64,000 nucleotides of DNA from Planktothrix rubescens CCAP 1459/22 (lineage in GTDB: Bacteria; Cyanobacteriota; Cyanobacteriia; Cyanobacteriales; Microcoleaceae). Shown here piece after piece: positions 37,249-54,889 of the stretch (positions are counted from its first letter, which is position 1; each line of letters opens with the position of its first letter). The stretch is from contig LR882958.1 in NCBI GenBank assembly GCA_904830895.1, positions 310,001-374,000 on the forward strand. The letters run 5' to 3'. Position numbers and translations under genes: made by a program. The notes under the pieces were generated by a model. That model was given only the letters and a program-made list of their open reading frames with translations. It was not told the origin of the DNA and did not search any database.

Positions 37249-40200
37249 ATGACCAGCAATTACAGCGCCGACCAAATTCAAGTCCTTGAAGGTTTGGAAG
37301 CCGTTCGCAAACGCCCTGGAATGTACATTGGTTCCACAGGGCCAAGAGGACTCCACCATTTAGTATACGAGGTTGTAGACAATGCGATCGATGAGGCGCT
37401 GGCTGGCTATTGCACCCACATCGAAATCGATTTCAACGCCAATGGTTCCGTCACCGTCACCGATGATGGTCGCGGTATCCCCGTCGATACCCATTCTAAA
37501 ACCGGAAAGTCCGCTTTAGAAACGGTGTTAACAGTTCTGCACGCCGGAGGTAAATTTGGCGGTGGCGGTTATAAGGTTTCTGGGGGTTTACATGGGGTCG
37601 GGGTTTCCGTTGTTAACGCCTTATCAGAATGGTTAGAAGTCACGGTTTTTCGTGATAGAAAAGAATATTCCCAACGCTTTGAACGGGGGACTCCCGCCAC
37701 GGAACTGACATCAAAACCGATCAAAGAAGCCCGCACCGGAACCTCCGTTTGCTTTCTACCTGATACTGTAATTTTTACTACCGGAATTGAGTTTGATTGT
37801 GATACCATTGCTTCCCGTTTACGGGAACTTGCCTATTTGAATGCGGGAGTTAAAATTACTCTGACAGATAGTCGTTTAGAACTGTTAAGACGGGAAACTC
37901 CCAGGATAGAAACCTACCGTTATGAAGGCGGAATTCGGGAGTATATCGCCTACATGAACAATGATAAACAACCCCTCCATGAAGATATTATTTATACTTG
38001 TGGAGAACGGAGTAATGTTCAAATAGAAGTCGCTTTGCAGTGGTGTACCGATGCCTATAGTGATACGGTTTTAGGCTTTGCTAATAATATTAGAACTATC
38101 GATGGTGGAACCCATTTGGAAGGGTTAAAAACCGTTTTGACTCGGACTTTAAATGCGATCGCCCGTAAACGGAATAAACTTAAAGAAGGAGAAGCAAATT
38201 TAGGCGGGGAAAATATTAGGGAAGGTCTGACCGCCGTTATTTCTGCGAAAGTTCCCGATCCTGAATTTGAAGGACAAACCAAAACCCGATTAGGAAATCC
38301 AGAGGTTCGGGGAATTGTTGACTCATTGGTGGGGGAAGCTTTAACCGAGTATTTAGAATTTAATCCAGGAATTGCCGATGCGATAATTGAGAAAGCCATC
38401 CAAGCCTTTAAAGCCGCAGAAGCCGCTCGTCGAGCCCGGGATTTAGTTCGTCGAAAATCGGTCTTAGAATCCTCACCTTTACCCGGTAAATTAGCGGACT
38501 GTAGTACCCGAGATCCCCATGAATCCGAGATTTTCTTAGTCGAAGGGGACAGCGCTGGCGGTTGTTTTATTAGTTTTACTTATATATTGCTGGCTGATGG
38601 GTCAGAAAAAACTATCAAAGAAATTGTTGATGAGCAGGCTGAGGGGAAAGAGCATTTTTGCTACACCATTAATCAAAGTGGCAATATAGCCATTGAACGC
38701 ATCACCAATGCACGACTAACGAAGAAAAATGCCCAAGTCGTGAAATTAACTTTAGATAATGGAGAAACCCTGATTTGTACTCCCGAGCACCCGTTTATGT
38801 TGCGCGATCGCACCTATAAAGCAGCAGCAGAATTAACCCCAGAAGATTCCTTAATGCCATTTCATCGCAAAATTTCTCAGAAAGGGGTAGATGGAGGATT
38901 AAACGGTTATGAAATGGTTTGGAACCCCGGTTATGATAAATGGATTTATACCCATTTATTAGCCGATTTTTATAACTTAAAACATGGGGTTTATCAAGCG
39001 TCTGAAGGCAATCATCGTCACCATGTTGATTTTCATAAACTTAACAATAATCCCACCAATATCAAACGCTTACCAGCAGAAGAACATTTAGCCTTACATC
39101 GCGCTAATTTGGAAAAAACCTTACATCGTCCTGATGTGATTGAGAAAAGTCGCCAAGTGCATCAAAGTGAAGAATTCCGAGCATTTATGAAGCAACGAAT
39201 GATGCACCCTCAAACCCGACAAATCCTGTCAGAACAAGCTAAAGCACAATGGGAAAATGAGGAATATAAAGCTTATATGGGGGAGAAATGGCGAGAGTTT
39301 TATGAAAGTAATGAGGAGTATCGCCAAGAAAATAATGAAATGTTATATCAGGCGCAACAAGAATATTGGAGTCATGAAGAAAATCGCCTAAAACAATCGG
39401 AACGGGTGCGTCAACAGTTTGCAAATAACCCGGAATTACGAGAATCTTATTCTGAAGCAGCGAAAAAACAATGGGAAGATGAAGAACTTTTGGAATGGCG
39501 ACGGGAAAAAACGAAGGAACAATGGACAAGAGATTTTCGTAAAAAACGCCGTCAAGCATTAGATGAAACCTATTATGCCAAAACACTGGCTGCGCTTTAT
39601 AAAGTCTATTCCCATTATGGGTATATGGACGTTGACAAGTACGAAGATTATCGCAAACGTCAAAAAGATAACAGTATACTGAAGTTTAAAACCTTTTGCG
39701 ATCGCTATTTTGAAGGGGATGAAGTTGCCACCAGAACTGCTATTCGTAACTATAACCATCGGGTAGTTTCTATTGAATGGTTAGAAGAACGGCATGATGT
39801 TTATGATATTGAGATTCCCCATAGCCATAACTTCGCATTATCGGCGGGTATATTTGTGCATAATAGCGCCAAACAAGGACGCGATCGCCGTACCCAAGCC
39901 ATTCTTCCTTTACGGGGAAAAATCCTGAATATCGAGAAAACCGATGATGCCAAAATCTACAAAAATAATGAAATTCAATCCTTAATTACAGCATTAGGAT
40001 TAGGGATAAAAGGAGAAGAATTTGATGCTTCTCAATTGCGGTATCACAAAGTCATAATTATGAGCGTTGCGGGTGATGAACCAACCCTAGTAATGGAAGA
40101 TACCGGAAAAACGGAATTTGTGGAAATTGGCAAATTTATTGATGAGTGTATCGAAGGGAAACGTACCCCAGAACGCTATCAAGTGATTGCCTTTGATCCC

Positions 40201-42141
40201 GTAACCCATGCCACCCGTTTTCGTCCGATTAAAGCCGTAATTCGTCACGGTCATGAAGAACCCATGTATCAACTGACGACTCGCTATAATCGTCAGATTA
40301 AAGTCACATCTTCCCATAGTGTTTTTGTTTATGAAAACGGGGAAGTTAAACTCAAAAAAGGCAATGAAATTAAACCGGGAGATTGGTTAGTTGCCAGTCG
40401 TCGTTTACCCCGTTCAACTGAACCCCAAACCCGAATTGATTTACTCCGAACTTTATATGAAGCGGGTGTAACTCAATCATTATATTTACAAGGAGAAGAT
40501 GTTCGTAAAATTGCCAGTCGGCGAATTTTAGCCCAGGTTGACAAACCGGAATTATTCAGTGAAACCCGGGTTGAATTAGATGCTCAAGGATGGGAACAAT
40601 TAATTGCCCAACGTCAAGCATTAGGCATGACTCAAAAACAATTGGCAACTGCCATTGGAGTCAAACAACCCATTACTATTAATCACTGGGAACGGGGAAT
40701 TAATCGCCCAATTTTGTCTAATTTCTTGGATTATTTAGAGACAATTGGAGGTAACGAAAATATTGTTTACCAAACCCTTCCCTCTAAAATTGATCAACTC
40801 CTGACTCAAGATGACAGCAGTAAAAACGCCCGTTGGCGAGAAGTTAGTAATTACAAACCCTTTGAATATTTCACACCAAGCGAGTTAATTCAGTTGGGGG
40901 ATAACCTAAAAATTGTTCCTCAAGCGCACCAGAATAAAGCCTTTGATCGCTATTTACCCATTACTTCAGAATTGATGTGGTTTTTGGGTTGGTATGTAGC
41001 GGAAGGAACCCTATCAAAACATCAAGTCAGCCTGAATTTAGGCACAAAAGATGAGCGATTTATTCCTGAGTTAATTACAGCTATTCAAGAGGTATTTGGG
41101 GAAACCCCACGCCGCTATAATGATCCCGAAAGTCAGGGGATTAAACTGTACTTTAATAGTGTAGCTGCTGCCCGACTTTTACAGGCTTGGGGATTAGGAA
41201 AAAAATCCCATGAAAAACAAATTCCCGATCTGGTTTTCTCGGTGACAGAACCTTTACAAATTGCCTTTTTAGAGGGGTATTTCTTAGGGGATGGTACAAC
41301 CAGTGGGGCGAATATTTCTTGGACTACAAACTCCAATTCAATTAAGAATGGATTACTCTATTTATTCGGACAATTGGGATTAATTGCGAGTACCAGTGAA
41401 CATCAACCTCAATTGAATGACACAGCCCCAATTCAAACCCGTTATCCCTACTATACCCTGACCCTTTGTGGCAAACAACAACTCGAAAGTTGTCGTTTAA
41501 TTTGGCAACGTCATTTAGGGGTAGAAAAACTCAACGCCTATTTACAACTTCCGACTCAAAAACCGATGGATTATTTACCCATTAGTGAAGATTTAATGGG
41601 ATTAAAAGTTATCAAGGCAGAGGAGATTGAATTAGTTGGAGAGTATGTTTATGACTTCTCCGTTGATGGGGATGAAAACTTTGTTTGTGGAACTGGAGGA
41701 CTCTGCTGTCATAACACCGATGCGGACGTTGATGGAGCCCACATCCGAACTTTGTTACTCACCTTTTTCTATCGTTATCAACGGGAATTAGTGGATCAAG
41801 GCTATATTTATATTGCCTGTCCTCCCCTGTACAAAGTGGAACGGGGACGTAACCATCAATACTGTTACAATGAGCGAGAATTGCAAGAGCATTTGAGAAG
41901 TTTACCCGCCAATGCCAACTACAATATTCAACGGTTTAAAGGGTTAGGGGAAATGATGCCAGAACAACTTTGGACAACCACCATGAACCCAGAAACTCGC
42001 ATGATTAAACGGGTTGAAGTTGAAGATGCCGCCGAAGCTGATCGGATTTTTACTGTATTAATGGGCGATCGCGTTGCCCCCCGTCGGGAGTTCATCGAAA
42101 CCCACGCCCCCCGATTAAATTTAACTGATTTAGATATCTAA
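37249..42141 (+). CDS. gyrB: DNA gyrase subunit B precursor with two inteins
   Basis: ATPase subunit of DNA gyrase, introducing negative supercoils with GyrA. The 1630-residue precursor contains a normal 645-residue GyrB after removal of two inteins. Extein parts: residues 1-438 (GHKL ATPase, for example [18 protein letters not shown], and the start of TOPRIM, EGDSAGG), 873-938 ([19 protein letters not shown] to HKVIIM) and 1490-1630 ([15 protein letters not shown] to the end, including the conserved [13 protein letters not shown]). Both insertions fall in catalytic TOPRIM motifs, so splicing is essential. The C-terminal NLTDLDI is standard. The reading frame is intact throughout. A terminator follows at 42171. 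Confidence 0.97.
38563..39864 (+). other. Intein 1 in GyrB (HNH endonuclease type)
   Basis: 434 residues (439-872), inserted between SAGG and SAKQGRDR, the known GyrB site also used by the Synechocystis GyrB intein. First residue Cys ([14 protein letters not shown]), block B TPEHPFM, last residues GIFVHN before Ser+1, so all splicing residues are present. The middle has an HNH-type core ([18 protein letters not shown], then EEHLALH) and a row of repeated helical QW-x-x-E-E segments like NUMOD DNA-binding repeats. Full-length homing endonuclease with no frameshift, so possibly active. Confidence 0.93.
40063..41715 (+). other. Intein 2 in GyrB (LAGLIDADG type with XRE-like HTH)
   Basis: 551 residues (939-1489), inserted between HKVIIM and TDADVDGAH, in the metal-binding DxD motif of TOPRIM. 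The first residue is Ser ([13 protein letters not shown]), block B is VTSSHSVFV, the end is GGLCCHN, and the next extein residue is Thr. Two LAGLIDADG-like motifs are FLGWYVAEG (about 1244-1252) and LEGYFLGDG (about 1340-1348). Residues about 1115-1165 ([20 protein letters not shown]) look like an XRE-type helix-turn-helix, unusual inside an intein. All blocks look intact. Confidence 0.93.
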
Positions 42142-42170
42142 GGGGTTTGGGATTGCTTGAGGTATGATCT

Positions 42171-42204
42171 AAAAACCCGATTTCGTGAAAGTTATCGGGT
42201 TTTT
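42171..42204 (+). terminator. Rho-independent terminator of gyrB
   Basis: Perfect 11-bp stem AAAAACCCGAT (42171-42181) / ATCGGGTTTTT (42194-42204) with a 12-nt loop. An identical copy stands at 45361-45394 behind the duplicated gyrB tail. Confidence 0.92.
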
Positions 42205-42220
42205 AATCTTCAACGCATTT

Positions 42221-42315
42221 GCGATCGCGTGGAGTGAGAAACCGGGTTTCTGAATAAAATATCGGCGGCGATGCTTGAGTTATCTGATCGACCCGGTTTC
42301 TTAAGTTGCGATCGC
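42221..42315. repeat. HIP1-bounded double palindrome repeat, copy 1
   Basis: Consensus layout: GCGATCGCGTGG, then GAGAAACCGGGTTTCTGA, a ~40-nt link with CGGCGGCGATGCTTGAGTTA, then CTGAGAAACCCGGTTTCTTA and AGTTGCGATCGC. Here the second palindrome is mutated (CTGATCGACCCGG). Copies 2-6 are listed below. This copy supplies the last residues and stop of the truncated retropepsin-like gene. Confidence 0.9.
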
Positions 42316-42540
42316 ATGGTAATGGTATTGAATAGGAACGGTTTGCTGTTCCCATATTGCCCCTAATTGTAGACCAATCTGATATGGGAGAACATTAACA
42401 CTTGCACCAGTATCTAATAATGCCATCACTTCTACAGAGTTGCTACCGATGGAGAGAGTAATGGGCAAATATGGCATGACACTCGATCGCCCAAGGCTAT
42501 CAATTCTCTCTATAAATGGGAATCGCTGACTATTAAGCAT
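42301..42540 (-). pseudogene. Retropepsin-like aspartic protease, C-terminally truncated copy
   Basis: 79 codons nearly identical to the first 71 residues of the 142-residue protein at 45471-45899, including the catalytic-type motif VMALLDTGASVNVLPY. After AIWEQQTVPIQ the homology stops and the frame runs into palindromic repeat copy 1, adding a few foreign residues before a stop. The missing 70 residues suggest a deletion joined at the repeat. The D-T-G motif survives, but half the fold is gone, so probably inactive. It overlaps the upstream 86-residue gene by 8 bp. Confidence 0.8.
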
Positions 42541-42793
42541 GGGCTGATTCTTGGGCGGTAGCTAGAAGTTCTGATAATGCTTGAATTGACTTCTGATCTG
42601 CCTGTGGAGACCATACAACTGCACTCGTTGATGCTAGTTGATTCAAAAGTATATTTTCTGAATTAGTATCTTCAGCAGGTTCTAGGCTGCATCCTTGTTC
42701 CTTGGCAACTGCAAGTAGGAGAAAGTGAATGAGTCGCAGTTTATCTTGATGAGATAATTGATTAACTGTGGGTAAAAGTTCACTGAGAGGCAT
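42533..42793 (-). CDS. 86-residue small protein upstream of a retropepsin-like gene (copy A)
   Basis: A small, acidic, mostly helical protein that I do not recognise (SELLPTVNQLSHQDKLRLIH). The first half resembles antitoxin-type helical N-termini that recur in cyanobacterial TA and Uma2 neighbourhoods; the second half is Ser/Ala-rich. It is one residue different (Lys for Glu) from copy B at 45892-46152. Its stop overlaps the start of the retropepsin-like gene by 8 bp, so the two form a translationally coupled pair. Confidence 0.65.
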   Translation of the reverse strand: MPLSELLPTVNQLSHQDKLRLIHFLLLAVAKEQGCSLEPAEDTNSENILLNQLASTSAVVWSPQADQKSIQALSELLATAQESAHA

Positions 42794-42977
42794 ATCGCTT
42801 GTTTAAGAGTATATATATTTATTTTAACCTTTAAAATTGTGTTTTAACGGCGATCGCGCTTTCTTTTGGAGGGGCGATCGCACTACAAATCATCGATTTT
42901 AATCGGTATAGTTGAGCCGTTGAAGAGCAGAAATGTCAGGGTGATGGTTGCGTGTCTATCAGTTACAATGCCGGAAA

Positions 42978-43250
42978 TCACCTGTAAACACGCTCCATAA
43001 TTCCACCGAATGATACGGCTACATTGTATCCAATACGAATACCAAATAGACGAGCATTTGGATGTTTTTCACTGAGTTTTCGGGCTGATTTTAACCCGGT
43101 TTCATCTACTTCGTAGTCTCCTGATTCAAAGTCGATGATCACCATCTTGCCGATATTTTCGTCTATCTCAACTTGTTGACGGATGCTACTCTCATACAAT
43201 TGTCGGGCGCGTCGTGCCACTTCTTCTCGGCTTAAAAGGATGGTTTGCAT
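42978..43250 (-). CDS. Small conserved protein, possible antitoxin-like partner
   Basis: A 90-residue protein from the ATG at 43250 (LSREEVARRARQLYESSIRQ). The pattern ENIGKMVIIDFESGDYEVDE followed by LFGIRIGYNVAVSFGG matches a small family common in cyanobacteria and other TA-rich genomes. I know no proven activity. A longer frame to 43334 would overlap hicA by 20 bp, and its extra residues look unconserved. It lies 64 bp beyond the hicA stop and is probably in the same transcript. Confidence 0.65.
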   Translation of the reverse strand: MQTILLSREEVARRARQLYESSIRQQVEIDENIGKMVIIDFESGDYEVDETGLKSARKLSEKHPNARLFGIRIGYNVAVSFGGIMERVYR

Positions 43251-43314
43251 GAGGAGAGCCTTGCGATTGCTATACTTAATATTATACCGCAGATATTGAT
43301 CGCTCCTTTGAAGA

Positions 43315-43533
43315 TCATAAATTTTCCCATTCATCTCTCTGAATCATTGCCTGTCGCAATATCTCAGCCAAAAGCCCTCTGCCGATATCGCCACGATGCG
43401 GGTTCGGCACTCGCACAGTAATATCGCCCTTCTGCATATACTGGTGTTTGCTGCCAGCATAAGGCCCATCAAAACCCAGTTGCTTTAAATACTTGATTAA
43501 ATCTCGACGACTAATTGGCCCAAAAGCAGGCAT
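43315..43533 (-). CDS. hicA: HicA family toxin
   Basis: A 72-residue HicA-type mRNA interferase with a double-stranded-RNA-binding fold. Motifs: ISRRDLIKYLKQLGFDGPYA, then GSKHQYMQ with the catalytic His, ITVRVPNPHRGDI and GLLAEILRQA. HicA cleaves mRNA and tmRNA when free; HicB neutralises it. The start at 43533 overlaps the hicB stop by one base (TAATG), showing translational coupling. Toxin second, antitoxin first, as in many cyanobacterial hicBA loci. Confidence 0.9.
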   Translation of the reverse strand: MPAFGPISRRDLIKYLKQLGFDGPYAGSKHQYMQKGDITVRVPNPHRGDIGRGLLAEILRQAMIQRDEWENL

Positions 43534-43775
43534 TATGCAACTTCCTTGATCGATAATTCTATTCCATCGACAACAGGTAAAGGCAAATTCTGCGAAATCC
43601 GCAACAAAATCCAATCTTCCAAAACCTCTGCCAATTCTTCTCTGCAAGTTTCGAGTGCATCTGCATTAGCCCATAGACCCTGAAAGCCGGGAATTTCCCC
43701 GAAAAAAGTACCATCATCTGTCAATATCTTGTACTTGGCTTTATGCAAAGCGGCTTGGAGGTATTTTGTCAACAT
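43533..43775 (-). CDS. hicB: HicB family antitoxin
   Basis: An 80-residue HicB-type partner with the partial RNase H-like fold: KYKILTDDGTFFGEIPGFQG, then ANADALETCREELAEVLEDW. It has no obvious C-terminal HTH or ribbon-helix-helix DNA-binding domain, so autoregulation may differ from E. coli HicB. ATG 43775 was chosen; the frame upstream is repeat-derived. It starts the hicB-hicA unit, with the 42978-43250 gene downstream. Confidence 0.88.
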   Translation of the reverse strand: MLTKYLQAALHKAKYKILTDDGTFFGEIPGFQGLWANADALETCREELAEVLEDWILLRISQNLPLPVVDGIELSIKEVA

Positions 43776-43874
43776 AACAAGTGTCTTTGATTTCCCTGAA
43801 AACAGTCTATCATGGAAATAAAAAAATATAGAGAACTGATTAGAAACAGAGCGATCGCTCTTTCTTTTGGATGG

Positions 43875-43951
43875 GCGATCGCGTGGAGTGAGAAACCGGG
43901 TTTGGTGAACACTCATCTCGGTTCTTGAGTTATCTGAGAAACCCGAAATCT
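43875..43951. repeat. HIP1-bounded double palindrome repeat, copy 2
   Basis: GGCGATCGCGTGGAGTGAGA and AACCGGGTTT, then a diverged centre and TGAGTTATCTGAGAAACCCG. Lies between hicB and the 122-residue orphan. Preceded by GCGATCGCTCTTTCTTTTGG, also found beside other copies. Confidence 0.82.
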
Positions 43952-43982
43952 TACAATTATTTGAAAAATATTGAGGTGAAAA

Positions 43983-44351
43983 ATGCACGATTTATATAGG
44001 CTGATTGAGAAAATTAAGAAGGCTCCTTCAATGTACTTGGGACGACACTCTATTATTTGTATTCAGGCTTTTTTGTCGGGTTACAGCGTTGCTAAATATG
44101 AGTTAGGAGAACAGCCAACGAAACAAGATCGCGATTTTATGCAGTTTTCTGAGTGGATACGAAAAAGATTCAATGTGCAGACTAGCCAATCTTGGGCTAA
44201 TATCATTCTTTTTTATTCTGAGGATGAAAGTAAAGCACTTGATAAGTTTTTTGAACTCCTAGATGAATTTATAAATCGGAATCCTGCTGATGATAATTTA
44301 GTTAAAGAAGGATTGGATATGTCGGAAAAAGTGGAAGTTTTTAGAAGTTGA
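43983..44351 (+). CDS. 122-residue orphan protein, immunity-like style
   Basis: A soluble acidic protein that I do not recognise. Notable conserved-looking stretches are KKAPSMYLGRHSIICIQAFL, then FSEWIRKRF, SWANIILFYS and ALDKFFELLDEFINR, a pattern seen in small proteins next to toxins and polymorphic toxin systems (weak inference). TGAGGTGAAAAATG gives a plausible ribosome-binding site. It is the only plus-strand gene between copies 2 and 3 of the palindromic repeat. Confidence 0.6.
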   Translation: MHDLYRLIEKIKKAPSMYLGRHSIICIQAFLSGYSVAKYELGEQPTKQDRDFMQFSEWIRKRFNVQTSQSWANIILFYSEDESKALDKFFELLDEFINRNPADDNLVKEGLDMSEKVEVFRS

Positions 44352-44359
44352 CAAAAAGA

Positions 44360-44443
44360 GCGATCGCGTGGGGTTGAGAAACCGAGTTTCTGAATAAAAT
44401 CTCGGCGGCGATACTTGAGTTATCTGAGAAAACCAGTTTCTTA
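44360..44443. repeat. HIP1-bounded double palindrome repeat, copy 3
   Basis: GCGATCGCGTGGGGTTGAGA, mutated first palindrome (AACCGAGTTTC), CTCGGCGGCGATACTTGAGT and mutated second palindrome. Separates the 122-residue orphan from the GNAT-type TA remnant. Confidence 0.85.
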
Positions 44444-44563
44444 ACCTGCACTATTTTTATGACTTAATTTTCGGTTGGTTCAATATCTTGGATACTCAAC
44501 AGATCGATCAATGGCTTGAGATCGAGATACATAGTGCGATAAGGTACAGATGGCGGTAAGGAC

Positions 44564-44878
44564 TCACGCCAGTAAACCAATCTTGATGGCTGGAAACGAT
44601 CGGTACTGAACACCCTCATCTAGCAGGATTGTTTCATCAACTACCAGTTTATCCGCGAGTAGAGTGATATAACCTGCCAAAGTGTTTTCATGGCGTAAAA
44701 TCCAGCATTGACTGATACGAGCGTCTATCTCTCGCTGAATCCGCCCTTGTCGCCAGTAAGTGACAAATTCACCCCGTAGACAACGAAACCCCTGAGCAGA
44801 AATGGTAAGATTTGCGGTCAGATGCTCGACGGGTAACTCGGAGAAATCAACTCCAGTAAACTTACTACTGGGCGGCAT
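44564..44878 (-). pseudogene. Truncated GNAT-type (TacT-like) toxin
   Basis: 104 codons resembling the first two thirds of toxin-type GNAT acetyltransferases: LRGEFVTYWRQGRIQREIDA at the start, GYITLLADKL and SFPAIKIGLLA. The family continues there with the acetyl-CoA loop (Q/R-x-x-G-x-G/A), but here a stop follows at once, so acetyl-CoA binding should be lost. The next ~100 bp (to about 44466) hold another open frame, YWRESLPPSVPYRTMYLDLK, of unknown origin. It overlaps the small antitoxin-like gene upstream by 14 bp, like a coupled TA pair. Confidence 0.65.
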
Positions 44879-45035
44879 TAGCAGACTTCTGACGACGGCG
44901 ACGATTGGCAATACGTTCAACTAAAGCCAAAGCAGCTTCATTTGCAATATAACCGCCACTCTTAAAGGCATGGGCTAGTTTCTGAACTTCGCTGCCTGAG
45001 ACAGGTTTGGAAACTGTATGGAGTGGGTACTTCAT
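44865..45035 (-). CDS. 56-residue antitoxin-like protein paired with the GNAT remnant
   Basis: A short basic-tailed protein (VSKPVSGSEVQKLAHAFKSG, then ALALVERIANRRRRQKSA). It ends 14 bp inside the GNAT frame, the tight overlap typical of antitoxin-toxin pairs. It is not a clear DUF1778/RHH antitoxin, but position and size suggest that role. The start at 45035 is the only ATG giving this frame. Function inferred from context only. Confidence 0.55.
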   Translation of the reverse strand: MKYPLHTVSKPVSGSEVQKLAHAFKSGGYIANEAALALVERIANRRRRQKSANAAQ

Positions 45036-45160
45036 AATTTAAGCTTGATTATTTAGCTTGATCATAGCAGGCGTTTCCCTATTTTCCGTAAGTATTTTAG
45101 ATAGAGCGATCGCGCTTTCTTTTAGTGAGGCGATGCCTTCGGCTGGCTGCGCCTACGGGT

Positions 45161-45240
45161 GGGGTTAAGAAACCGGGTTTCTGAATAAAATCTTGGCTGG
45201 GATGCTTTAGTTATCTGAGAAACCCGGTTTCTTAAGTTGT
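45161..45240. repeat. HIP1-bounded double palindrome repeat, copy 4
   Basis: Contains GGTTAAGAAACCGGGTTTCT, AAAATCTTGGCTGGGATGCT and GAGAAACCCGGTTTCTTAAG. It abuts the duplicated gyrB tail at 45243. Confidence 0.87.
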
Positions 45241-45242
45241 GA

Positions 45243-45331
45243 CTATATTAATGGGCGATCGCGTGGCCCCCCGTCGGGAGTTCATCGAAACCCATGCTCC
45301 CCGCCTAAATTTAACTGATTTAGACATCTAA
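45243..45331 (+). pseudogene. Duplicated 3' tail of gyrB (last 26 codons)
   Basis: Encodes the same 26 residues as the true gyrB end (from [15 protein letters not shown] to the stop). Compared codon by codon there are six changed codons (Val, His, Ala, Arg, Leu, Asp) and all are synonymous. The gyrB terminator follows in identical form. A decaying copy should show amino-acid changes, so this tail more likely came from another functional gyrB allele by recombination. It marks the downstream edge of a 3.2-kb insertion. Confidence 0.9.
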
Positions 45332-45360
45332 GGGGTTTGCGATTACTTGAGGTATGATCT

Positions 45361-45394
45361 AAAAACCCGATTTCGTGAAAGTTATCGGGTTTTT
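45361..45394 (+). terminator. Duplicate of the gyrB terminator
   Basis: AAAAACCCGAT / ATCGGGTTTTT, identical to 42171-42204, behind the duplicated gyrB tail. Confidence 0.9.
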
Positions 45395-45470
45395 AATGTC
45401 TCTCCAATTGAAAACCACTATATTTTAGGTGATCGCTCATCAGAAACAAGAAAGCGCGATCGCATATTGC

Positions 45471-45899
45471 TTAAACAATTCCTTTCTCCCTTGGGTAAAG
45501 CTCAAAAGCTAATTCGTGACGAAAAAAACAGACATTAAACTCCGAGAAAAAGTTGAGGTGTCCAAGGATTACAGGTGCATCTGTCGAACGAGTCCAAGCG
45601 AATGCAAGTAAGATCGTAGAAAACTCAGCAAGTGCGCCTGAAAGCACCAATCCCCGCGCCTCACTATGAGCCAAATTCCCACTCAATTGAATAGGAACGG
45701 TTTGCTGTTCCCATATTGCCCCTAATTGTAGACCAATCTGATATGGGAGAACATTAACACTTGCACCAGTATCTAATAATGCCATCACTTCTACGGAGTT
45801 GCTGCCGTTGGAGAGAGTGATTGGCAAATATGGCATGATACTTGATCGCCCAAGGGTATCAATTCGCTCTATAAATGGGAATCGCTGACTATTAAGCAT
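45471..45899 (-). CDS. Retropepsin-like aspartic protease family protein (full-length copy)
   Basis: A 142-residue protein with a single D-T-G motif in EVMALLDTGASVNVLPY (about residues 37-53) and a later VILGHLNFFSEF, the psi-loop/flap arrangement of retropepsin-like (RVP/gag-asp) domains that act as dimers. The protein is about the size of one retropepsin subunit. It is coupled to the 86-residue gene by an 8-bp overlap. Such pairs are common in cyanobacteria, but I know of no proven function; a protease acting in a TA- or defence-like module is a guess. The truncated twin is at 42301. Confidence 0.72.
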   Translation of the reverse strand: MLNSQRFPFIERIDTLGRSSIMPYLPITLSNGSNSVEVMALLDTGASVNVLPYQIGLQLGAIWEQQTVPIQLSGNLAHSEARGLVLSGALAEFSTILLAFAWTRSTDAPVILGHLNFFSEFNVCFFRHELAFELYPREKGIV

Positions 45900-46152
45900 G
45901 GGCTGATTCTTGGGCGGTAGCTAGAAGTTCTGATAATGCTTGAATTGATTCCTGATCTGCCTGTGGAGACCATACAACTGCACTCGTTGATGCTAGTTGA
46001 TTCAAAAGTATATTTTCTGAATTAGTATCTTCAGCCGGTTCTAGGCTGCATCCTTGTTCCTTGGCAACTGCAAGTAGGAGAAAGTGAATGAGTCGCAGTT
46101 TATCTTGATGAGATAATTGATTAACTGTGGGTAAAAGTTCACTGAGAGGCAT
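45892..46152 (-). CDS. 86-residue small protein upstream of the retropepsin-like gene (copy B)
   Basis: Almost identical to copy A at 42533-42793 (one residue, Glu for Lys). Same helical N-terminal half and Ser/Ala-rich C-terminal half. The high conservation of protein and flanking DNA (shared up to about 46240, including GCGCTTTCTTTTGGAGGGGC) shows that the whole module was duplicated recently. Translationally coupled to the protease-like gene. Confidence 0.65.
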   Translation of the reverse strand: MPLSELLPTVNQLSHQDKLRLIHFLLLAVAKEQGCSLEPAEDTNSENILLNQLASTSAVVWSPQADQESIQALSELLATAQESAHA

Positions 46153-46264
46153 ATCGCTTGTTTAAGAGTATATATATTTATTTTAACCTTTAAAATTGTG
46201 TTTTAACGGCGATCGCGCTTTCTTTTGGAGGGGCGATCGCGATGAGTTTTGGTGGGCGATGGTG

Positions 46265-46362
46265 TGGCGATCGCGTGGGGGTGAGAAACCGGGTCTCTGA
46301 ACAAAATCTCGGCGGCGATGCTTGAGTTATCTGAGAAACCCGGTTTCTTAAGTTGCGATCGC
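46265..46362. repeat. HIP1-bounded double palindrome repeat, copy 5
   Basis: GGCGATCGCGTGGGGGTGAG, GAAACCGGGTCTCTGA, CTCGGCGGCGATGCTTGAGT and GAGAAACCCGGTTTCTTAAG, then TTGCGATCGCC. Between the retropepsin module and vapBC. Confidence 0.9.
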
Positions 46363-46461
46363 CTTCCCCATTCAATAGCACCTATACTATCGGTCAAGAT
46401 ACTGGTAAAGGTGAACAGCTTTGAGGTAAACTAGAATTGCTCGAAGTTTCTGGAGTCTGAC

Positions 46462-46734
46462 ATGGAAACAATGAAACTGCGATCGCATATTGGAACCGAT
46501 GGCATATTGCTTCTCCAAATGCCCGATGAGTTTAAAGATACTTCTGTGGAAGTGGTGGTAGTTGTGCAGCCTCTACCATCGGAGGAAGTTAAACCGAAGT
46601 ATAACGCTTGGGGACAACTGACTACTAAAAAATCAATTCAAACAGCAATTGGTAGAATGCGACAACTACGGCAAGAAATTGCCTTGGATAAAAGCTCAAT
46701 CCGCGAAATGATAGAAGAAGGGCGCAGGTTCTAA
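46462..46734 (+). CDS. vapB: VapB-type antitoxin
   Basis: A 90-residue protein directly before a PIN toxin. It starts KLRSHIGTDGILLLQMPDEF, an AbrB/SpoVT-like or related beta-rich N-terminus, and ends in a charged helix (SSIREMIEEGRRF) of the kind that wraps the toxin. Its stop overlaps the vapC start by one base (TAATG). A second ATG three codons in is possible. The family label rests mainly on the partner. Confidence 0.78.
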   Translation: METMKLRSHIGTDGILLLQMPDEFKDTSVEVVVVVQPLPSEEVKPKYNAWGQLTTKKSIQTAIGRMRQLRQEIALDKSSIREMIEEGRRF

Positions 46735-47177
46735 TGCAGTTTATATTGGATTGTTCTGTAGCAATCAGTTGGTGCTTAGTGGATGAAGATAACGATTATG
46801 CTAATGCTATACTCGCGATGATGCCGGATTGCGAAGCGTTTGTACCAGGAATTTGGTCGCTAGAAGTTGCTAATACTCTCCTGGTTGCCGAGCGACGCAA
46901 TCGCATGACGACTGAGCAATCTGAGATGGCTATTACTTTTTTACAATCACTTTTAATTCAGGTTGATGAAGCTACGGATAGCAACGCACTGTCGTCAACT
47001 CTGGTACTAGGAAGACAAGAAGGTTTAGCTGCTTATGATGCAGCTTATTTAGAGTTAGCATTAAGATTGGAATTGCCGATCGCAACACTGGATAGCCACT
47101 TGGCGGAAGCGGCAATTCGCTGCGGTGTGGGGTTGGTAGTTATTGATGGAGAAATGCCAGAGACGGAGCGATCGTAA
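46734..47177 (+). CDS. vapC: VapC-type PIN-domain toxin
   Basis: A 147-residue PIN-domain ribonuclease. Acidic active-site residues are visible: Asp in FILDCSVAISWCL (residue about 5), Glu in SLEVANTLL, Asp in GLAAYDAAYLELA and Asp in IATLDSHLAEAA. VapC toxins cleave tRNA or rRNA and are held in check by VapB. All four acidic positions are present, so activity is likely. The 3' end is followed at 47213 by palindromic repeat copy 6. Confidence 0.9.
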   Translation: MQFILDCSVAISWCLVDEDNDYANAILAMMPDCEAFVPGIWSLEVANTLLVAERRNRMTTEQSEMAITFLQSLLIQVDEATDSNALSSTLVLGRQEGLAAYDAAYLELALRLELPIATLDSHLAEAAIRCGVGLVVIDGEMPETERS

Positions 47178-47212
47178 TCTAACCGATGAGAGGAGGTTAA
47201 ATAATTTTATGG

Positions 47213-47308
47213 GCGATCGCGTGGGGTTGAGAAACCGGGTTTTTGAATAAAATCTTGGCTGGGATGCTTTAGTTATCTGAGAAACCCGGTTTCTGAAGTT
47301 GCGATCGC
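47213..47308. repeat. HIP1-bounded double palindrome repeat, copy 6
   Basis: GCGATCGCGTGGGGTTGAGA, GAAACCGGGTTTTTGA, AAAATCTTGGCTGGGATGCT and GAGAAACCCGGTTTCTGAAG, then TTGCGATCGC. Between vapC and the specificity gene; shares the centre variant with copy 4. Confidence 0.9.
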
Positions 47309-47322
47309 GCTTGCAGGTTAAT

Positions 47323-48009
47323 CTAAACTGAAAAGTTGGTCTTAAGGTGTACAAGGTCTTCAAGCTGTTCACGAAAGACTCTCACTCTCTCAAACAAGGT
47401 TTTTCCAGTGTCTACTAAAGCTTCGGGAGGCGCACTGACTTCAAGATTGGCAATACGTCCCTTAATTGCCATCCGAGCATAGAAAAAACGCCATCTTTGT
47501 CTGTTAATCTGCACTACAAACCACAGCAAATCATTGAGGCTCATCTTGTACTTGGGTAACAAAACCCGAACTGAACTGCCACCGTTGCCTCTTGCCATAA
47601 ATGACCAGGGTTGTAACGCTGCTTTGCCGAAAGCAGTAATCGTAATGCCACCTTGCTCAAACACCTCCTCTGGAACAGGATCAATCAAGCTGATAATGCT
47701 GTTGGTCGAGTCACCACTACTGATATAGGGAATCGCGCCTTCAATGTAATTTTTTTCACCTATCGAGCGTCCATTCTCAATGTGGAAGTATTTAGAAAGT
47801 GTTCCATGAGTTCCATAAGGTAATTCCTTACTATCATCCTCTTCATCTGCAACCCCAAAATCTTCAAGAACAACATCAGCCAAGTCTGGCATCAATGTCA
47901 CAGCTTCAAATATCCCGCGCATTGCTTCACTTCGTAAACGTTCAAATTCACGCTCCGAGAGTTTTGGTTGAGGTAGCCATTGTTGTGGACTCCACTCGAT
48001 ATTACTCAT
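47323..48009 (-). CDS. DNA-specificity subunit of a BcgI/type I-like restriction system
   Basis: A 228-residue protein with one target-recognition-domain-like half, as in HsdS: IPYISSGDSTNSIISLIDPV, then GGITITAFGKA and a C-terminal helix (TGKTLFERVRVFREQLEDLV) resembling the conserved spacer of type I S subunits. Full HsdS has two such halves (about 400 residues), so this would work as a dimer or be a half-S subunit. Its start overlaps the methylase/nuclease gene by 4 bp (ATGA), so they are one operon. It provides sequence recognition for the upstream enzyme. Confidence 0.78.
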   Translation of the reverse strand: MSNIEWSPQQWLPQPKLSEREFERLRSEAMRGIFEAVTLMPDLADVVLEDFGVADEEDDSKELPYGTHGTLSKYFHIENGRSIGEKNYIEGAIPYISSGDSTNSIISLIDPVPEEVFEQGGITITAFGKAALQPWSFMARGNGGSSVRVLLPKYKMSLNDLLWFVVQINRQRWRFFYARMAIKGRIANLEVSAPPEALVDTGKTLFERVRVFREQLEDLVHLKTNFSV

Positions 48010-49664
48010 GGGAGAATATCACATCCTTCTACGACTGTAACTAATTCAGAAATTACCGTTTTACCTTTCATAAAAATATGAAATTGGTTGACAATCTCAT
48101 CAATCTGATTACCTGCTCGTTCAACACGCTTACCCTTAAGCTTTTCATATCCATCATTCCAAATTCTGGCCATAAATATTTTGTCAGTTGAGGCAAGTGG
48201 TACATGAGCTTCAGCAACCATGATTGAGGTTGGTGCAGCAGTTGGATAAAACAAGTCTTCAGGAAGGCTAATCATGGCAAGGAGTTTATGTTTGAGCAGA
48301 AAACGTTGTCGCCATGCGTTGTGATTCATATCGGCGAAAATTCCAGCATATACAACTACAGTCAAGAATCCACCGGGTTCTAGTGCATCCATTGCTCTGT
48401 CAACAAATAGATACTCCGGTTCCTCGTCTTGGGAAAACGGCGGGTTGAGAAATGCTCTAGTGCATCTACGATTTACAACCGAGAATATATTATCGTCAAA
48501 GCAGCTTTCGTTATAAATATGACTTTTACCATCTCCTCGAAAAAACATATTGAGCATCGAAAGTGCCCAAACAGTCGGATTAGTATCAAAACCAATAATT
48601 GAATCTTTGACCTTCTCAATTTCAGCAGCACTACGAGCTTGTCGCATCATGGCATCAAATGCAGCAACGAGAAAGCCGCCTGTACCCGCAGCAATATCAA
48701 TAATACGATCTCGTACACTTACTCCCACTAATTCGGCACACATCCGCGTAATATGTCGTGGCGTGAAAACAATTCCCAGGGCATTATTGTCATAGCCATA
48801 ACGCAAAAATGCTTCGTAGAACATTCCCAAAAAATCAGCATCTGTTTGTATGACTGAGCGAACATTCAGGCGCTTTAGTGTATTGATAACTCGCCCAATA
48901 TAAGGAGAAAGGCGATTAAAATCTGCTCCTGATAAACGCAGAGCATCTTTGAGTCGTTCTTTATTTTGATCGGGTAGTTTATGTGCAGCATTAATAGCAC
49001 TTTCAGCTAGTGTATTAACTGAGAATAACGCATTAGTAGGAGTTGTATCAATTTGTCCCTGGTACATTGCCAAAACTAAAGCACCAATCACTTTAGGACG
49101 AAGTGGGGCTTCTATTTTCGCAGTGCGTAGAATACGACTTGTTTCAATTGCTGCATCAACAAACTCAGCTTGTGAGGGTACACTCACTTTTGTTGAGCCA
49201 TTATCGGCTTTCAGCGCAATTTCAACTTCTGTTTTGGTTGGAAAAGTAGTTAGGGCAAATCCATGTGAAGTAAGAGAAATCCATCTCTGATGAGTTAGAA
49301 AAGAAACACTGATCTCAAACCCTTTATCTTCTTCGCCCGCAGCACCAATCGCTACTTTAATACTGTATTTACCTATTGCATTGATTTTGTCAGCGTAATC
49401 CTCTGCTTCTTTTTGTGCTTGTTTCAGTTTACCTACTTCGTTTTTTGCTTCAACAATAATCGTGGGATCGCCTACTAAACAGAAAAGAAAGTCAGGTCGT
49501 TCGCCTTCAAGACCAATGTTATGGAAATAAGCTTCGATTTCTTGCTCCTCTAAAACATCTCCTCCGCTACTAATGTGACGCAGATCCCAACCACGACGTT
49601 CAGCTTCACGCCGAATATAATAGCGACAACGATTTTCTGATCTTCGATTTTGTTTTGGAGCCAT
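48006..49664 (-). CDS. Fused PD-(D/E)XK nuclease and N6-adenine methylase (BcgI-like RM subunit)
   Basis: A 552-residue single-chain restriction-modification subunit. N-terminal nuclease motif: RPDFLF (Asp58) ... IIVEAK (Glu72, Lys74), a good PD-(D/E)XK site. The C-terminal half is an HsdM-type methylase with SAM loop IAAGTGGFLVAAF (about 322-335), the catalytic NPPF (about 405-408) and motif regions such as GIVFTPRHITRMC. With the half-S protein it forms the two-gene architecture of type IIB enzymes such as BcgI. It should both methylate and cut unmodified DNA. No separate helicase HsdR is present. Confidence 0.85.
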   Translation of the reverse strand: MAPKQNRRSENRCRYYIRREAERRGWDLRHISSGGDVLEEQEIEAYFHNIGLEGERPDFLFCLVGDPTIIVEAKNEVGKLKQAQKEAEDYADKINAIGKYSIKVAIGAAGEEDKGFEISVSFLTHQRWISLTSHGFALTTFPTKTEVEIALKADNGSTKVSVPSQAEFVDAAIETSRILRTAKIEAPLRPKVIGALVLAMYQGQIDTTPTNALFSVNTLAESAINAAHKLPDQNKERLKDALRLSGADFNRLSPYIGRVINTLKRLNVRSVIQTDADFLGMFYEAFLRYGYDNNALGIVFTPRHITRMCAELVGVSVRDRIIDIAAGTGGFLVAAFDAMMRQARSAAEIEKVKDSIIGFDTNPTVWALSMLNMFFRGDGKSHIYNESCFDDNIFSVVNRRCTRAFLNPPFSQDEEPEYLFVDRAMDALEPGGFLTVVVYAGIFADMNHNAWRQRFLLKHKLLAMISLPEDLFYPTAAPTSIMVAEAHVPLASTDKIFMARIWNDGYEKLKGKRVERAGNQIDEIVNQFHIFMKGKTVISELVTVVEGCDILP

Positions 49665-49883
49665 GCACTGTTAAAAATTTAACTATTAATTACAATGAAA
49701 ATGTTTTCTCTATCATCTTTATAAATCAAAGATTTGTCTAGCCAAAAAACATCCTATTTTGCCGCCAACCTCCCCCCACTTTCACTCTATTAAATCTAAT
49801 TTTGTACAAAAATATATGAAATTGTACGAAAATGCTGTCAAATGTGAGCTACAATACAAAAAATCTCGCATCTACCAAACCAG

Positions 49884-51269
49884 ATGAATCTTAAAGAAAT
49901 GTTAAAATTCGCTGATGATATAGTATTTGCTAAAACAGGCCAACATCTTGACGATTTACAAGCAGCGGTGCTGCGAGGAACTCTACAACGGGAGACATAC
50001 AAAGAAATAGCGAAAGACTTTGACTGTTCTGAAAGTCGCATCAGAGAAATTGGATCGGAATTATGGCAATTACTTTCAGAAGAATTGGGAGAAGATATCA
50101 ATAAAAAGAATTTTCGCTCGGCGATGGAGAGGTTACAAATCTCCCTATTTTCAAATGTTATACAAGATAATGTTATACAAGATAATGTCGGAGTTGGTAG
50201 TATTAATATCTGTGGAGAAGGAAGACACCCGCCAAATACACCAAACTCACCCCCACCAAATCAAGAAACATCTAACACAAAACAACCTGAAACTCCACAT
50301 CAAGATTTAAGCGAGATGCCAGAATTAGGTGCTTTTTACGATCGCACTCCTGAACTAGAAACCCTGACCACCTGGATTTTACAAGCACAATGTCGCCTGA
50401 TTGCTATTACGGGTATTAGCGGTATTGGGAAAACATCCCTAGCAGTACAAATCGTACAACAAATAAAAAATGAATTTGATTACATAATTTGGCGCACTAT
50501 AAACGCATCCCACACCTTAGACGAATTTCAACAGGAACTAATTCAGCTTTTCTCCCATTCAGAAAAACTAGACTCCCCTACAACTAAACCGAAACCCTTA
50601 TCCCTAATTAAGTATTTACAAAAGCATCGCTGTTTAATTATATTAGATGATGTTCATAATCTTTTCAGTAGTGGCGAATTGGCAGGAAAATATAAACCAG
50701 AATATGAAGAATATCGCCATTTTTTTAAACAGATAGAAAAATTATCCCATCAAAGTTGCTTTCTTTTAATCGGTTGGGAACAACCCAGAGAAATTTCTCA
50801 AATTGAAAGCCAAAATAATCCTATTCGTACCTTACAAATCAATGGTTTAGATATCGCAGCCGCAGGGGAAATACTCAGAGATTACGGGTTAGCAGAAATC
50901 GACTACTCAATACTTATTCACCGTTACCAAGGCAACCCTTTATGGTTAAAAAGTGTTGCAACTCTGATTCAAGAATTAGGAGTCAATGTTACTGATTTAT
51001 TACAAAATGATACCATCTTATTACCCGAAGATGTTAAAGATATTTTACGGCAACAGTGGGATCGCCTGTCCGATAGAGAAAAACAAATATTGTCCATACT
51101 GGCTAAGGAAACTCAACCCCTAAAACTGTCAAAATTAATAGACAAACAACCCAATTTAAACTTAGAATTAGTTAATGTCTTACAATCTTTACAACGGCGT
51201 TGTTTAGTAGACAAAATTGAGGATAGTTTCTGGTTATCACCTCTAATTAAGCAGTATTTGGTCATATAA
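49884..51269 (+). CDS. STAND ATPase with N-terminal HTH (NB-ARC-like)
   Basis: A 461-residue signal-transduction ATPase. Residues about 19-66 (DDLQAAVLRGTLQRETYKEI, then AKDFDCSESRIREI) form the vWA-MoxR-associated HTH also seen at 31739. A Pro/Asn-rich linker leads to the NTPase: Walker A TGISGIGKTSLA (about 176-187), Walker B CLIILDDVHN (about 250-259), and a winged-helix part ending in LSPLIKQYLVI. No WD40 or TPR sensor follows, which is unusual for this group, so sensing may need a partner. It is divergent from the RM pair (219 bp apart), suggesting a defence role. Confidence 0.82.
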   Translation: MNLKEMLKFADDIVFAKTGQHLDDLQAAVLRGTLQRETYKEIAKDFDCSESRIREIGSELWQLLSEELGEDINKKNFRSAMERLQISLFSNVIQDNVIQDNVGVGSINICGEGRHPPNTPNSPPPNQETSNTKQPETPHQDLSEMPELGAFYDRTPELETLTTWILQAQCRLIAITGISGIGKTSLAVQIVQQIKNEFDYIIWRTINASHTLDEFQQELIQLFSHSEKLDSPTTKPKPLSLIKYLQKHRCLIILDDVHNLFSSGELAGKYKPEYEEYRHFFKQIEKLSHQSCFLLIGWEQPREISQIESQNNPIRTLQINGLDIAAAGEILRDYGLAEIDYSILIHRYQGNPLWLKSVATLIQELGVNVTDLLQNDTILLPEDVKDILRQQWDRLSDREKQILSILAKETQPLKLSKLIDKQPNLNLELVNVLQSLQRRCLVDKIEDSFWLSPLIKQYLVI

Positions 51270-51570
51270 AAAAGATGAAGATCAGATTCCCACAGATAAA
51301 TTTTATCGACCCGTCCTTTTTCTGATTTCCAATTTTCCCGAAAGTTAATCCGAGCAAATGTATCCTTTCATACAACGATGATCCGAATTTGATGAGAAAT
51401 TTTTCATGACAAAGGGCAGAACTTCCACTAACATTAGGGAAAAACACCCGTTAGGTGAAAAAACTCATCTCTAGTCCTGGTATCATAACTAATCAGTTTG
51501 AACCCAGGAACACTATCAATCCGGGTCGCGTCATCAACTAACGGAATCTTTCATCAACCAAGTTCCACCC
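51270..51570. other. Gene-free spacer upstream of the ECF sigma gene
   Basis: 301 bp. I see no gene. It marks the end of the accessory island; core genes resume after it. The last 100 bp should hold the sigma gene promoter, but I could not identify convincing boxes. Confidence 0.55.
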
Positions 51571-52227
51571 ATGAGTCAATCTATCCCTATCTCCTGGTCT
51601 AAGGCAGGCGTCTCTATCCCCCTGGAGCAACTACCCCTTGAGCAACTCCCCAATACCGATTTAGTCCTGCGGTGTCAAGAGGGAGTCTGTCCAGATAAAG
51701 CAGCCTTTACAGAACTGCTGCGTCGGTATCAGTCCCATGTTGATAAGATTCTCTATCACCTGGCCCCAGACTGGCAGGATCGGGCTGACCTCGCCCAAGA
51801 AATCTGGATTCGGGTCTATCGTAATATTAAGCGTCTACAGGAACCCGTCAAATTTCGGGGTTGGTTAAGTCGAATTGCTACTAATTTGTTCTACGATGAA
51901 CTCCGCAAGCGCAAACGGGTCAAACCCCCCTTATCTTTAGATGCCCCTCGCAATATAGAAGATGGGGAAATGGATTGGGAAATTGCCTCCGATGGCCCTG
52001 GCCCCGATGAAGATATGGCAACCCGTGAATTTTATAGTCATCTTCATGAAGCGATCGCCGATTTACCCGAAGCATTCCGCACCACGATTGTTTTGCGGGA
52101 AATTGAAGGATTAGCTTATGAAGAAATCGCCGAAATTACCGGGGTTTCCCTGGGAACGGTAAAATCGAGAATCGCCAGAGCCCGTCAACGCTTACAAACC
52201 GATCTGCAAGTGTATCTCAATCCCTAA
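51571..52227 (+). CDS. ECF-type RNA polymerase sigma factor (SigG-like)
   Basis: A 218-residue group 4 sigma factor. Region 2 is visible as DRADLAQEIWIRVYRNIKRL and WLSRIATNLFYDELRKRKRV; region 4 as AFRTTIVLREIEGLAYEEIA followed by SLGTVKSRIARARQRL. It redirects RNA polymerase to stress promoters. The next gene, 112 bp downstream, encodes a likely membrane anti-sigma factor, which fits the SigG arrangement of cyanobacteria. Exact signal unknown. Confidence 0.93.
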   Translation: MSQSIPISWSKAGVSIPLEQLPLEQLPNTDLVLRCQEGVCPDKAAFTELLRRYQSHVDKILYHLAPDWQDRADLAQEIWIRVYRNIKRLQEPVKFRGWLSRIATNLFYDELRKRKRVKPPLSLDAPRNIEDGEMDWEIASDGPGPDEDMATREFYSHLHEAIADLPEAFRTTIVLREIEGLAYEEIAEITGVSLGTVKSRIARARQRLQTDLQVYLNP

Positions 52228-52339
52228 AATCTGTGCAGGCGAGCGGGTGAAATTCCTGTTAATAGGGATATAATAGTTCTATAGGTTGAACCCCAATTTC
52301 TCATGTCTGATTTCATATTTGGTGAACGGGGGTGTTCGG

Positions 52340-52891
52340 ATGAAGCATAATCTTGAGCCAGAACCACAAACTTACTCAACCATCGGGGGATATCTATCTG
52401 AGGAACACTCGGATCTTGACCCTAAAATCCAATTACTCAGTGCCTACCTGGACAATGAAGCGACGGTTGCAGAGCGCCGTCAAGTTCAGTTGTGGCTGGA
52501 TACTGATCCTAAGATTAAAGCAACTTTTCTACAATTACTACAACTGCGTTCTCGCTTGCAAAATGCTCCTGTCCCTGCTTCTGGTACTTCGGTACAAAAA
52601 CTAACCGCCCGCGTTTTCCAACGGTTAAATCAGAGAACCCGGAGGATGGCAACTTGGGGAGGAACTGCGATCGCGGCTTTATTAGTGATGACTTTTTCTA
52701 GTACAATTTCAGGCAATTCCGGGCGTTTTCCGATGTTTGCCCAGTCTGAAACCCTGAACAATTCGGAACCCTTACAAATTGCTTTAAATGAACCTCTGAT
52801 CCCAATTATTACTCCGAATGCGGTTAGTATTAGTGTGGATCAACCGATTATTCCGATTCCTAAAGCCGCAGTTTCAAGACCCATCAATTAA
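52340..52891 (+). CDS. Membrane-anchored anti-sigma factor
   Basis: A 183-residue protein. The N-terminal cytoplasmic half has QLLSAYLDNEATVAERRQVQ, the anti-sigma (RsgI/zinc-finger-like) helical motif, although the usual HxxxCxxC zinc ligands are missing. A transmembrane helix follows at about residues 109-128 (GGTAIAALLVMTFSSTISG), then a Pro/Ile-rich outer part. The start is ATG 52340; the frame upstream to 52286 is less likely. It should bind the sigma factor encoded upstream and release it on a signal. Confidence 0.83.
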   Translation: MKHNLEPEPQTYSTIGGYLSEEHSDLDPKIQLLSAYLDNEATVAERRQVQLWLDTDPKIKATFLQLLQLRSRLQNAPVPASGTSVQKLTARVFQRLNQRTRRMATWGGTAIAALLVMTFSSTISGNSGRFPMFAQSETLNNSEPLQIALNEPLIPIITPNAVSISVDQPIIPIPKAAVSRPIN

Positions 52892-52894
52892 AAT

Positions 52895-52942
52895 AATATA
52901 ACCCCAGAGACTTTAAAATATAAGGTTTTTTGGGGTTATATT
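52895..52942. terminator. Bidirectional terminator between the anti-sigma gene and the GGCT gene
   Basis: AATATAACCCCA (52895-52906) and TGGGGTTATATT (52931-52942) are perfect complements. It lies between convergent genes, with T/A-rich flanks on both sides. Confidence 0.75.
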
Positions 52943-52948
52943 TTAGGT

Positions 52949-53356: not shown

Positions 53357-53508
53357 AGTTAAGTTGCAATGTCTGTAAGAAAAAGAGATGATTGTACAGT
53401 AATTGTCAAAACTTTTTGTTAAGATGATCATCAACAGATCGTCTTGACCGTTGGATGAAGGCGATGATTAGTTTGAATTGAGTTTATTTCCTACTTCTGA
53501 ATTTATTT

Positions 53509-54108: not shown

Positions 54109-54140
54109 CAGGGGGAGCAGGGGAGGTAAACTTTTTCTAT

Positions 54141-54163
54141 TACCCATTACTCATTACCCATTC
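54141..54163. repeat. Short STRR tract (ACCCATT)
   Basis: About three ACCCATT/ACTCATT units between the VOC gene and the degenerate GGDEF gene. Confidence 0.75.
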
Positions 54164-54172
54164 CCTATTTCC

Positions 54173-54832: not shown

Positions 54833-54889
54833 ATAGTTAATATATCGGGATAATAAAATAATACCAGCTAGATAGGAGTAGGTGAACTA

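Follow-up and report, generated by a model that had tools for sequence, protein, structure and literature searches.

A second gyrB 3' end within the cassette island behind gyrB of Planktothrix rubescens CCAP 1459/22

We analysed a 64,000-nucleotide window of the Planktothrix rubescens CCAP 1459/22 genome (contig LR882958.1, positions 310,001 to 374,000; window coordinates are used throughout), in which gyrB is followed by an island of small gene cassettes and the 3' end of gyrB, with its terminator-like hairpin, occurs again inside this island. The explanation that we hold, with some reservation, to be probable is that a stub of gyrB remained from a partial duplication and that gyrB received a divergent 3' half by import, so that two gyrB-end island alleles now stand in tandem. 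The left island (island 1) would be joined to the working gyrB, and the right one (island 2) would retain, as the stub, the final 30 codons of the gyrB that belonged to it, with the terminator. The relatives compared were a genome of the same species (G001), one of another species (G004), and G002, G003 and G006-G009.

Two gyrB ends and two types of island

Nucleotides 42052-42207, which include the end of the working gyrB (tail 1), are repeated at 45242-45397 (tail 2) with 94.2% identity over 156 bp at an offset of 3190; the E value of 2.5e-64 rules out a chance origin. An earlier note on this DNA had claimed that the last 26 gyrB codons and the terminator recur 3.19 kb downstream, that six codons differ, all synonymously, and that the terminator stems are identical. 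All of this was confirmed, the repeat actually beginning four codons earlier, where GTA (Val) in tail 1 becomes ATA (Ile) in tail 2; Ile is present at this site in gyrB of G001, G002, G004 and G007. In all, seven of the 30 codons differ; six of these changes are silent and one is a replacement. The whole repeat holds nine differing sites (42055, 42075, 42105, 42108, 42114, 42115, 42135, 42150 and 42155) and none in its final 52 bp, hairpin included. Under random substitution (40,000 draws), six silent changes out of six in the last 26 codons had a p of 3.5e-4, and at most one replacement among seven in the 30 codons a p of about 0.003. By inspection, both states of five of the seven differing coding sites are found in the working gyrB of relatives, and at the remaining two one tail carries a private state. 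The silent pattern and the occurrence of both states among relatives suggest that the differences arose in working genes, presumably in gyrB alleles that were functional as they diverged. A simple decaying duplicate, against which the earlier note had argued, fits the silent pattern badly and was rejected.

The gyrB tail was detected in nine of the ten genus genomes, the tenth being 73% complete, and a second tail in CCAP 1459/22 only; none was found in G001 or G004. In a family search 58 of 61 genomes matched the tail query, one of them (G010) by the terminator part alone, which leaves 57 with the tail itself; extra matches in other genomes were limited to query positions 117-171, the terminator part. 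A terminator-like hairpin 3' of gyrB is common to CCAP 1459/22, G001, G004 and G007, and is absent after gyrB in G002, G003, G006, G008 and G009. The sequence following the terminator is of the G001 and G004 type at tail 1 and of the G007 type at tail 2.

In G002 and G003, sequence equivalent to window position ~51378 comes ~100-160 bp past gyrB, which identifies ~42.2-51.3 kb of the window as extra, variable DNA. From such comparisons, the gyrB 3' flank in the genus is a hypervariable cassette island with apparently swappable defence and toxin-antitoxin genes. The comparison of gyrB flanks that the earlier note had proposed has revealed variable cargo, with the tandem tail confined to a single one of the ten genus genomes. 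In G001, gyrB and the terminator are followed by a cassette designated A and then by a match to 45422-47298 (98.7%); in G007 a different cassette precedes a match to 45422-46241 (95.9%). G004 contig C32 carries gyrB, the terminator, a small partner gene, an M repeat (a palindromic element described below), a different cassette and A, and contig C92 carries A, a HicAB pair, M, an acetyltransferase-like gene, M, further genes and a STAND NTPase gene.

The left island and G004 share cassette A cut at the identical place, and the HicAB and acetyltransferase-like cassettes are 96.5-100% identical to those of G004 in six 200-bp windows (43300-44999), with 80.8% in the last window, at 45000. The right island is 98.5-100% identical to G001 in 200-bp windows over 45690-46950. 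The G004-like left island, the G001-like right island and the different post-terminator types are our grounds for interpreting the locus as a tandem of two island alleles.

The earlier note took the island to be bounded by the two tails. The second tail is real, but the duplication exceeds it. Past non-matching spacers, 42327-42881 is repeated at 45686-46240 (555 bp, 97.8%), a stretch that holds an aspartic-protease-like gene and an 86-amino-acid partner gene. Tail, terminator, protease and partner follow one another in the same order and orientation in both copies, and the cargo beyond differs. The differences are patchy: nine lie in the 102 bp up to 42155, followed by 0/52, and the protease repeat shows 0/108, 9/73 and 3/376. 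Outside the two divergent patches, whose boundaries were picked after inspection of the data, the copies differ at 3 of 536 sites, which is the level that would be expected between two strains of one species. In a tree of the 555-bp repeat with nine relatives, copy 1 grouped at 98/95 with an Oscillatoriales USR001 contig (L048), and a single clade of the two copies was rejected by the approximately unbiased test (p-AU 0.023).

The 3' half of the working gyrB is divergent relative to G001. Changepoint analysis of the gyrB exteins alone placed the left edge at 38526 (interval 38486-38550), 37 bp upstream of intein 1, a score that none of 300 permutations reached; when the analysis was begun at 36900, with the 5' flank included, the changepoint moved to 37641 owing to a separate patch (22/280). 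Only 2 of 605 sites differ at 37921-38525, and gyrB 3' of 38526 differs far more, with 8 of 11 300-bp windows at 3% or above. Windows of this size gave a median difference of 0.7% outside 38400-45400 (120 windows) and 0-1% at 51000-54900. The right edge would lie at 42155, the last difference between the tails. This divergent tract, which runs from near intein 1 to a little beyond the stop codon, was probably acquired by recombination. The earlier claim that DNA with a related gyrB tail recombined here thus stands as far as the divergence from a same-species genome goes, but the near-identity outside the patches fits an in-species duplication with later import equally well.

Origin of the tandem arrangement

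The event that we favour would be a partial duplication producing a merodiploid, with a conspecific donor or the sister chromosome as its source. The stub would have formed when DNA ending in the repeat M4 joined the gyrB 3' end with hardly any homology; at the joint (45242) about one nucleotide is shared, as judged by eye. In a one-step route, incoming DNA would have been anchored in gyrB and its far end joined illegitimately; in a two-step route, a duplication would have been followed by import over the left copy. The data are compatible with one event or with two. The two repeats, the island alleles of relatives, the divergence profile and the silent pattern are observed; how the joining took place, whether duplication or import came first, and which lineage did the importing we infer. 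Near-identity outside the patches and shared private states favour a same-species donor or the two-step route, and two alleles are favoured by the unlike cargo and the unlike sequence after the terminators.

Several observations weigh against two tandem alleles with an imported gyrB half. The terminator leader is GATC in both tails and CCC in G001, G004 and G007. Tail 2 differs from G001 at nine sites and from the other relatives at 9-10, and being equally far from all of them is unexpected for a simple old G001-like gyrB end. In a five-row tree of the 156-bp tail and terminator the tails are sisters at 74/77. The p-AU of 0.023 given above hangs on one 73-bp block, in which nine of the 12 differences fall; elsewhere the two copies have states in common versus G001, one of them (alignment site 194) private to both, so that there they look like sisters. 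Cassette C of the left island was not found in the matching stretch of G004, and the placing of C32 beside C92 depends on contig ends within cassette A. Finally, a quarter (25%) of the 120 same-species backbone windows differ from G001 by at least 3%, and one 200-bp window of the right flank, at 45500, is at 94.5%, which suggests that divergent patches are common here. The tree of both tails that the earlier note had proposed gave no decision, the tails being too short: with 90 nucleotides and nine relatives it was poorly resolved, and one clade of tails was not rejected (p-AU 0.35).

A possible alternative, to which we give tentative credence, is that both steps took place within the lineage: a tandem duplication of tail, terminator, protease and partner at an M repeat, after which homologous recombination would have brought a foreign gyrB 3' half, and cassettes like those of G004, into the left copy alone. 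The near-identity outside the two patches, the private states common to the copies (the GATC leader and site 194) and the fact that M6 is the nearest relative of M4 all fit this history, which nevertheless needs extra replacement steps because the cargo after the partner gene and the post-terminator sequence differ between the copies.

It is very unlikely that faulty assembly or a mixed culture placed the gyrB flanks of two strains in a row. Repeats are located at the joint, but the genome (5.7 Mb) is in five contigs with completeness 100 and contamination 0.04, and the joint of M4 and tail 2 is not an overlap of two repeats, so that a physical junction read would be required. Certain prophages and islands that integrate into other genes bring a replacement 3' end with them, and their hallmark is an alternative tail beyond the cargo with silent changes only, as seen here; all the same, a remnant of an integrase-borne element that inserted at the gyrB 3' end and supplied its own replacement is the least credible origin, since PF00589 is found at four places in the genome, none less than 1.9 Mb from the locus on the contig (serine recombinases were not searched genome-wide), none of four integron integrase matches in the genome is over the cut-off, and G001 and G004 have the cassettes after one gyrB tail only, whereas L048 has them beside other genes. 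The gyrB 3' end, which the earlier note had called an insertion point, is accordingly a hotspot with variable cargo in relatives and not a site-specific target, no tyrosine or integron integrase being near.

We also considered whether intein 1 could drive the process. Inteins might make gyrB especially prone to recombination: cutting at the intein 1 site or close to it might draw in foreign gyrB 3' halves, the conversion tract might carry cassettes past the gene end, and the unpartnered far end might join at random and leave a stub, a selfish element thereby feeding a defence island; we regard this as improbable. Intein 1 has long and short alleles across species: 38979-39464 is missing in G001, G002 and G007 and present in the window and G004. 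Judged by its motif, this segment is probably the endonuclease part; Pfam shows the splicing domain only. Differences at 38547-38562 are common to G001 and G002, and an event at the intein site may therefore belong to the line of G001 and not to that of the window. G004, G008 and G009 have no intein 2. The idea that intein 2 and the island travel together was rejected, as G004 has the island without intein 2, and G002, G003 and G006 have intein 2 without the left end of the window's island.

Counterparts are described in three papers. In Vibrio cholerae, immunity-gene arrays of the type VI secretion system are proposed to grow by homology-facilitated illegitimate recombination (PMC5361080): DNA is anchored by upstream homology, its other end is joined illegitimately and old 3' material is kept downstream. 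Such a displaced remnant of the anchor gene is present here downstream of new cargo as tail 2 (45242-45331). Unlike in the V. cholerae case, gyrB, an essential core gene, is the anchor here, only its last 30 codons and the terminator were kept, and the cargo consists of toxin-antitoxin and defence cassettes. Transformation of Streptococcus pneumoniae makes merodiploids with tandem duplications, through DNA uptake and alternative pairing, and small duplications lacking flanking repeats were also seen (PMC3784515); there the mechanism was demonstrated experimentally, whereas ours is deduced, for a duplicated segment of small size. A further comparison is with intein homing, in which flanks are co-converted (PMC10643990): the divergence of gyrB appears to set in beside intein 1, and different species carry different intein alleles. 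Homing here would be hypothetical, and inteins and island are not associated across relatives. Integron cassette arrays resemble the island in their small gene modules and in a folding repeat with copies in one direction; unlike them, this genome has no integron integrase over the cut-off, and its repeat family is dispersed. Among the open-licence papers listed on Planktothrix with gyrB, inteins, genomic islands or toxin-antitoxin systems, and on genomic islands downstream of gyrB, none appears to concern this locus; in passages of PMC9398003 gyrB serves only as a tree marker.

The 3' end of an essential gene may thus act as the homologous anchor for swapping or adding whole islands of defence cassettes between strains and species. 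The silent-only stub would be a dated scar, and truncated core-gene ends inside islands could reveal such events in other genomes. If the link with the intein were true, a selfish genetic element would be tied to defence-gene turnover.

Cassettes and repeats of the island

Coordinates of the features are collected in Table 1. Searches of plasmid records with 41716-46500 gave no match, Rfam gave none at gathering score over 41700-51400, and a promoter scan found nine candidates against a mean of 9.2 in shuffled sequence, which is no excess.

Table 1. Features of gyrB and its 3' flank in the window
Feature	Position	Strand	Basis
Working gyrB, 1630 aa (amino acids), two inteins	37249..42141	+	TIGR01059 above cut-off; intein domains (N- and C-terminal)
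Import-like tract in the gyrB 3' half, divergent from G001	38526..42155	+	Changepoint (left), inferred (right)
Inteins 1 and 2 of gyrB	38563-39864, 40063-41715	+	Intein_splicing in both; LAGLIDADG_3 in second
Tail 1, final 30 codons of working gyrB	42052..42141	+	Repeat search, codon comparison
Terminator-like hairpin T1	42170..42205	+	Repeat search
M1, ~95-bp palindromic repeat	42221..42315	+	Repeat search
Aspartic-protease-like gene, shortened, 79 aa	42301..42540	-	Open reading frame list, profile search, repeat search
86-aa partner gene, copy 1	42533..42793	-	Open reading frames, repeat search
Cassette A small gene; protease partner (seen in G001) cut at 42898	42978..43334	-	Comparison with relatives
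HicA-like toxin and UPF0150/HicB-like antitoxin	43315..43775	-	PF07927 E 4.9e-11, PF21748 E 6.3e-29
M2, degenerate repeat	43875..43953	+	Repeat search
Cassette C, 122-aa gene; elsewhere in G001 island	43983..44351	+	Open reading frames, relatives
M3 repeat	44360..44444	+	Repeat search
Acetyltransferase-like fragment; G004 form longer, 215 aa	44564..44920	-	Pfam E 0.17, under cut-off
M4 repeat; right end of island 1, abuts tail 2	45156..45242	+	Repeat search
Tail 2, probable stub of another gyrB allele	45242..45331	+	Repeat search, codon and relative comparison
Terminator-like hairpin T2, identical to T1	45360..45395	+	Repeat search
Aspartic-protease-like gene, full-length, 142 aa; phage-defence candidate PDC-M52B	45471..45899	-	PADLOC E 9.5e-80
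86-aa partner gene, copy 2	45892..46152	-	Open reading frames
M5 repeat	46267..46362	+	Repeat search
VapBC-like pair	46462..47177	+	PIN domain, under cut-off
M6 repeat; nearest to M4 (94% over 87 bp)	47213..47308	+	Repeat search
DNA methyltransferase and specificity-like subunit, restriction-modification type	47323..49664	-	N6_Mtase 6.3e-29; Methylase_S under cut-off
NB-ARC/STAND NTPase, right end of island	49884..51269	+	PF00931 2.1e-15

The window has six M copies, each at a junction between cassettes and all oriented alike. Hairpins are predicted in four of the five copies folded (z -4.1 to -8.0), M3 being the exception (z -0.26). A model of M matched at least 49 of 60 family genomes (E up to 1e-6), with at least 18 matches in CCAP 1459/22, which points to a wider family of dispersed repeats; the idea that M is restricted to the island (nine matches, eight in the island, among 40 of 93 candidates) was dropped after the model search found 18.

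The STAND NTPase gene adjoins the array in G001, G004 and G007. Outside the genus, at least six of eight listed loci scoring at least 88 bits have a homologue of it within 7 kb, for which the chance, a post hoc figure, is ~4e-9 with ten STAND copies per genome and 1.4e-7 with 18. L048 carries five M copies, oriented alike, between toxin-antitoxin modules, together with the protease cassette of the window, methyltransferase genes and a STAND gene; we take this array to lie near panB, some of the gene names being provisional. Arrays of toxin-antitoxin and defence genes delimited by M occur in several genera (window 42221-47308, L048 5803-12359, L115 6049-7966, L116 2369-3407), the direction of M being uniform inside each, and these may be a STAND-anchored type of cassette array.

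The protease and partner pair (45471-46152) is found in Oscillatoriales and other cyanobacterial genera (L048-L053) at 88-96% protein identity, which suggests that it moves widely. A repeat of ~32-39 bp bounded by GCGATCGC stands at cassette ends in the window (42850, 43851, 45106 and 46209), and 18 of the 51 GCGATCGC sites of the window fall within 41.5-50.5 kb. The G004 island (L110, 1834-6779) contains a gene that we guess from its sequence to be radical-SAM-like, with neighbours, and a gene similar to one of these neighbours stands beside M repeats in L116.

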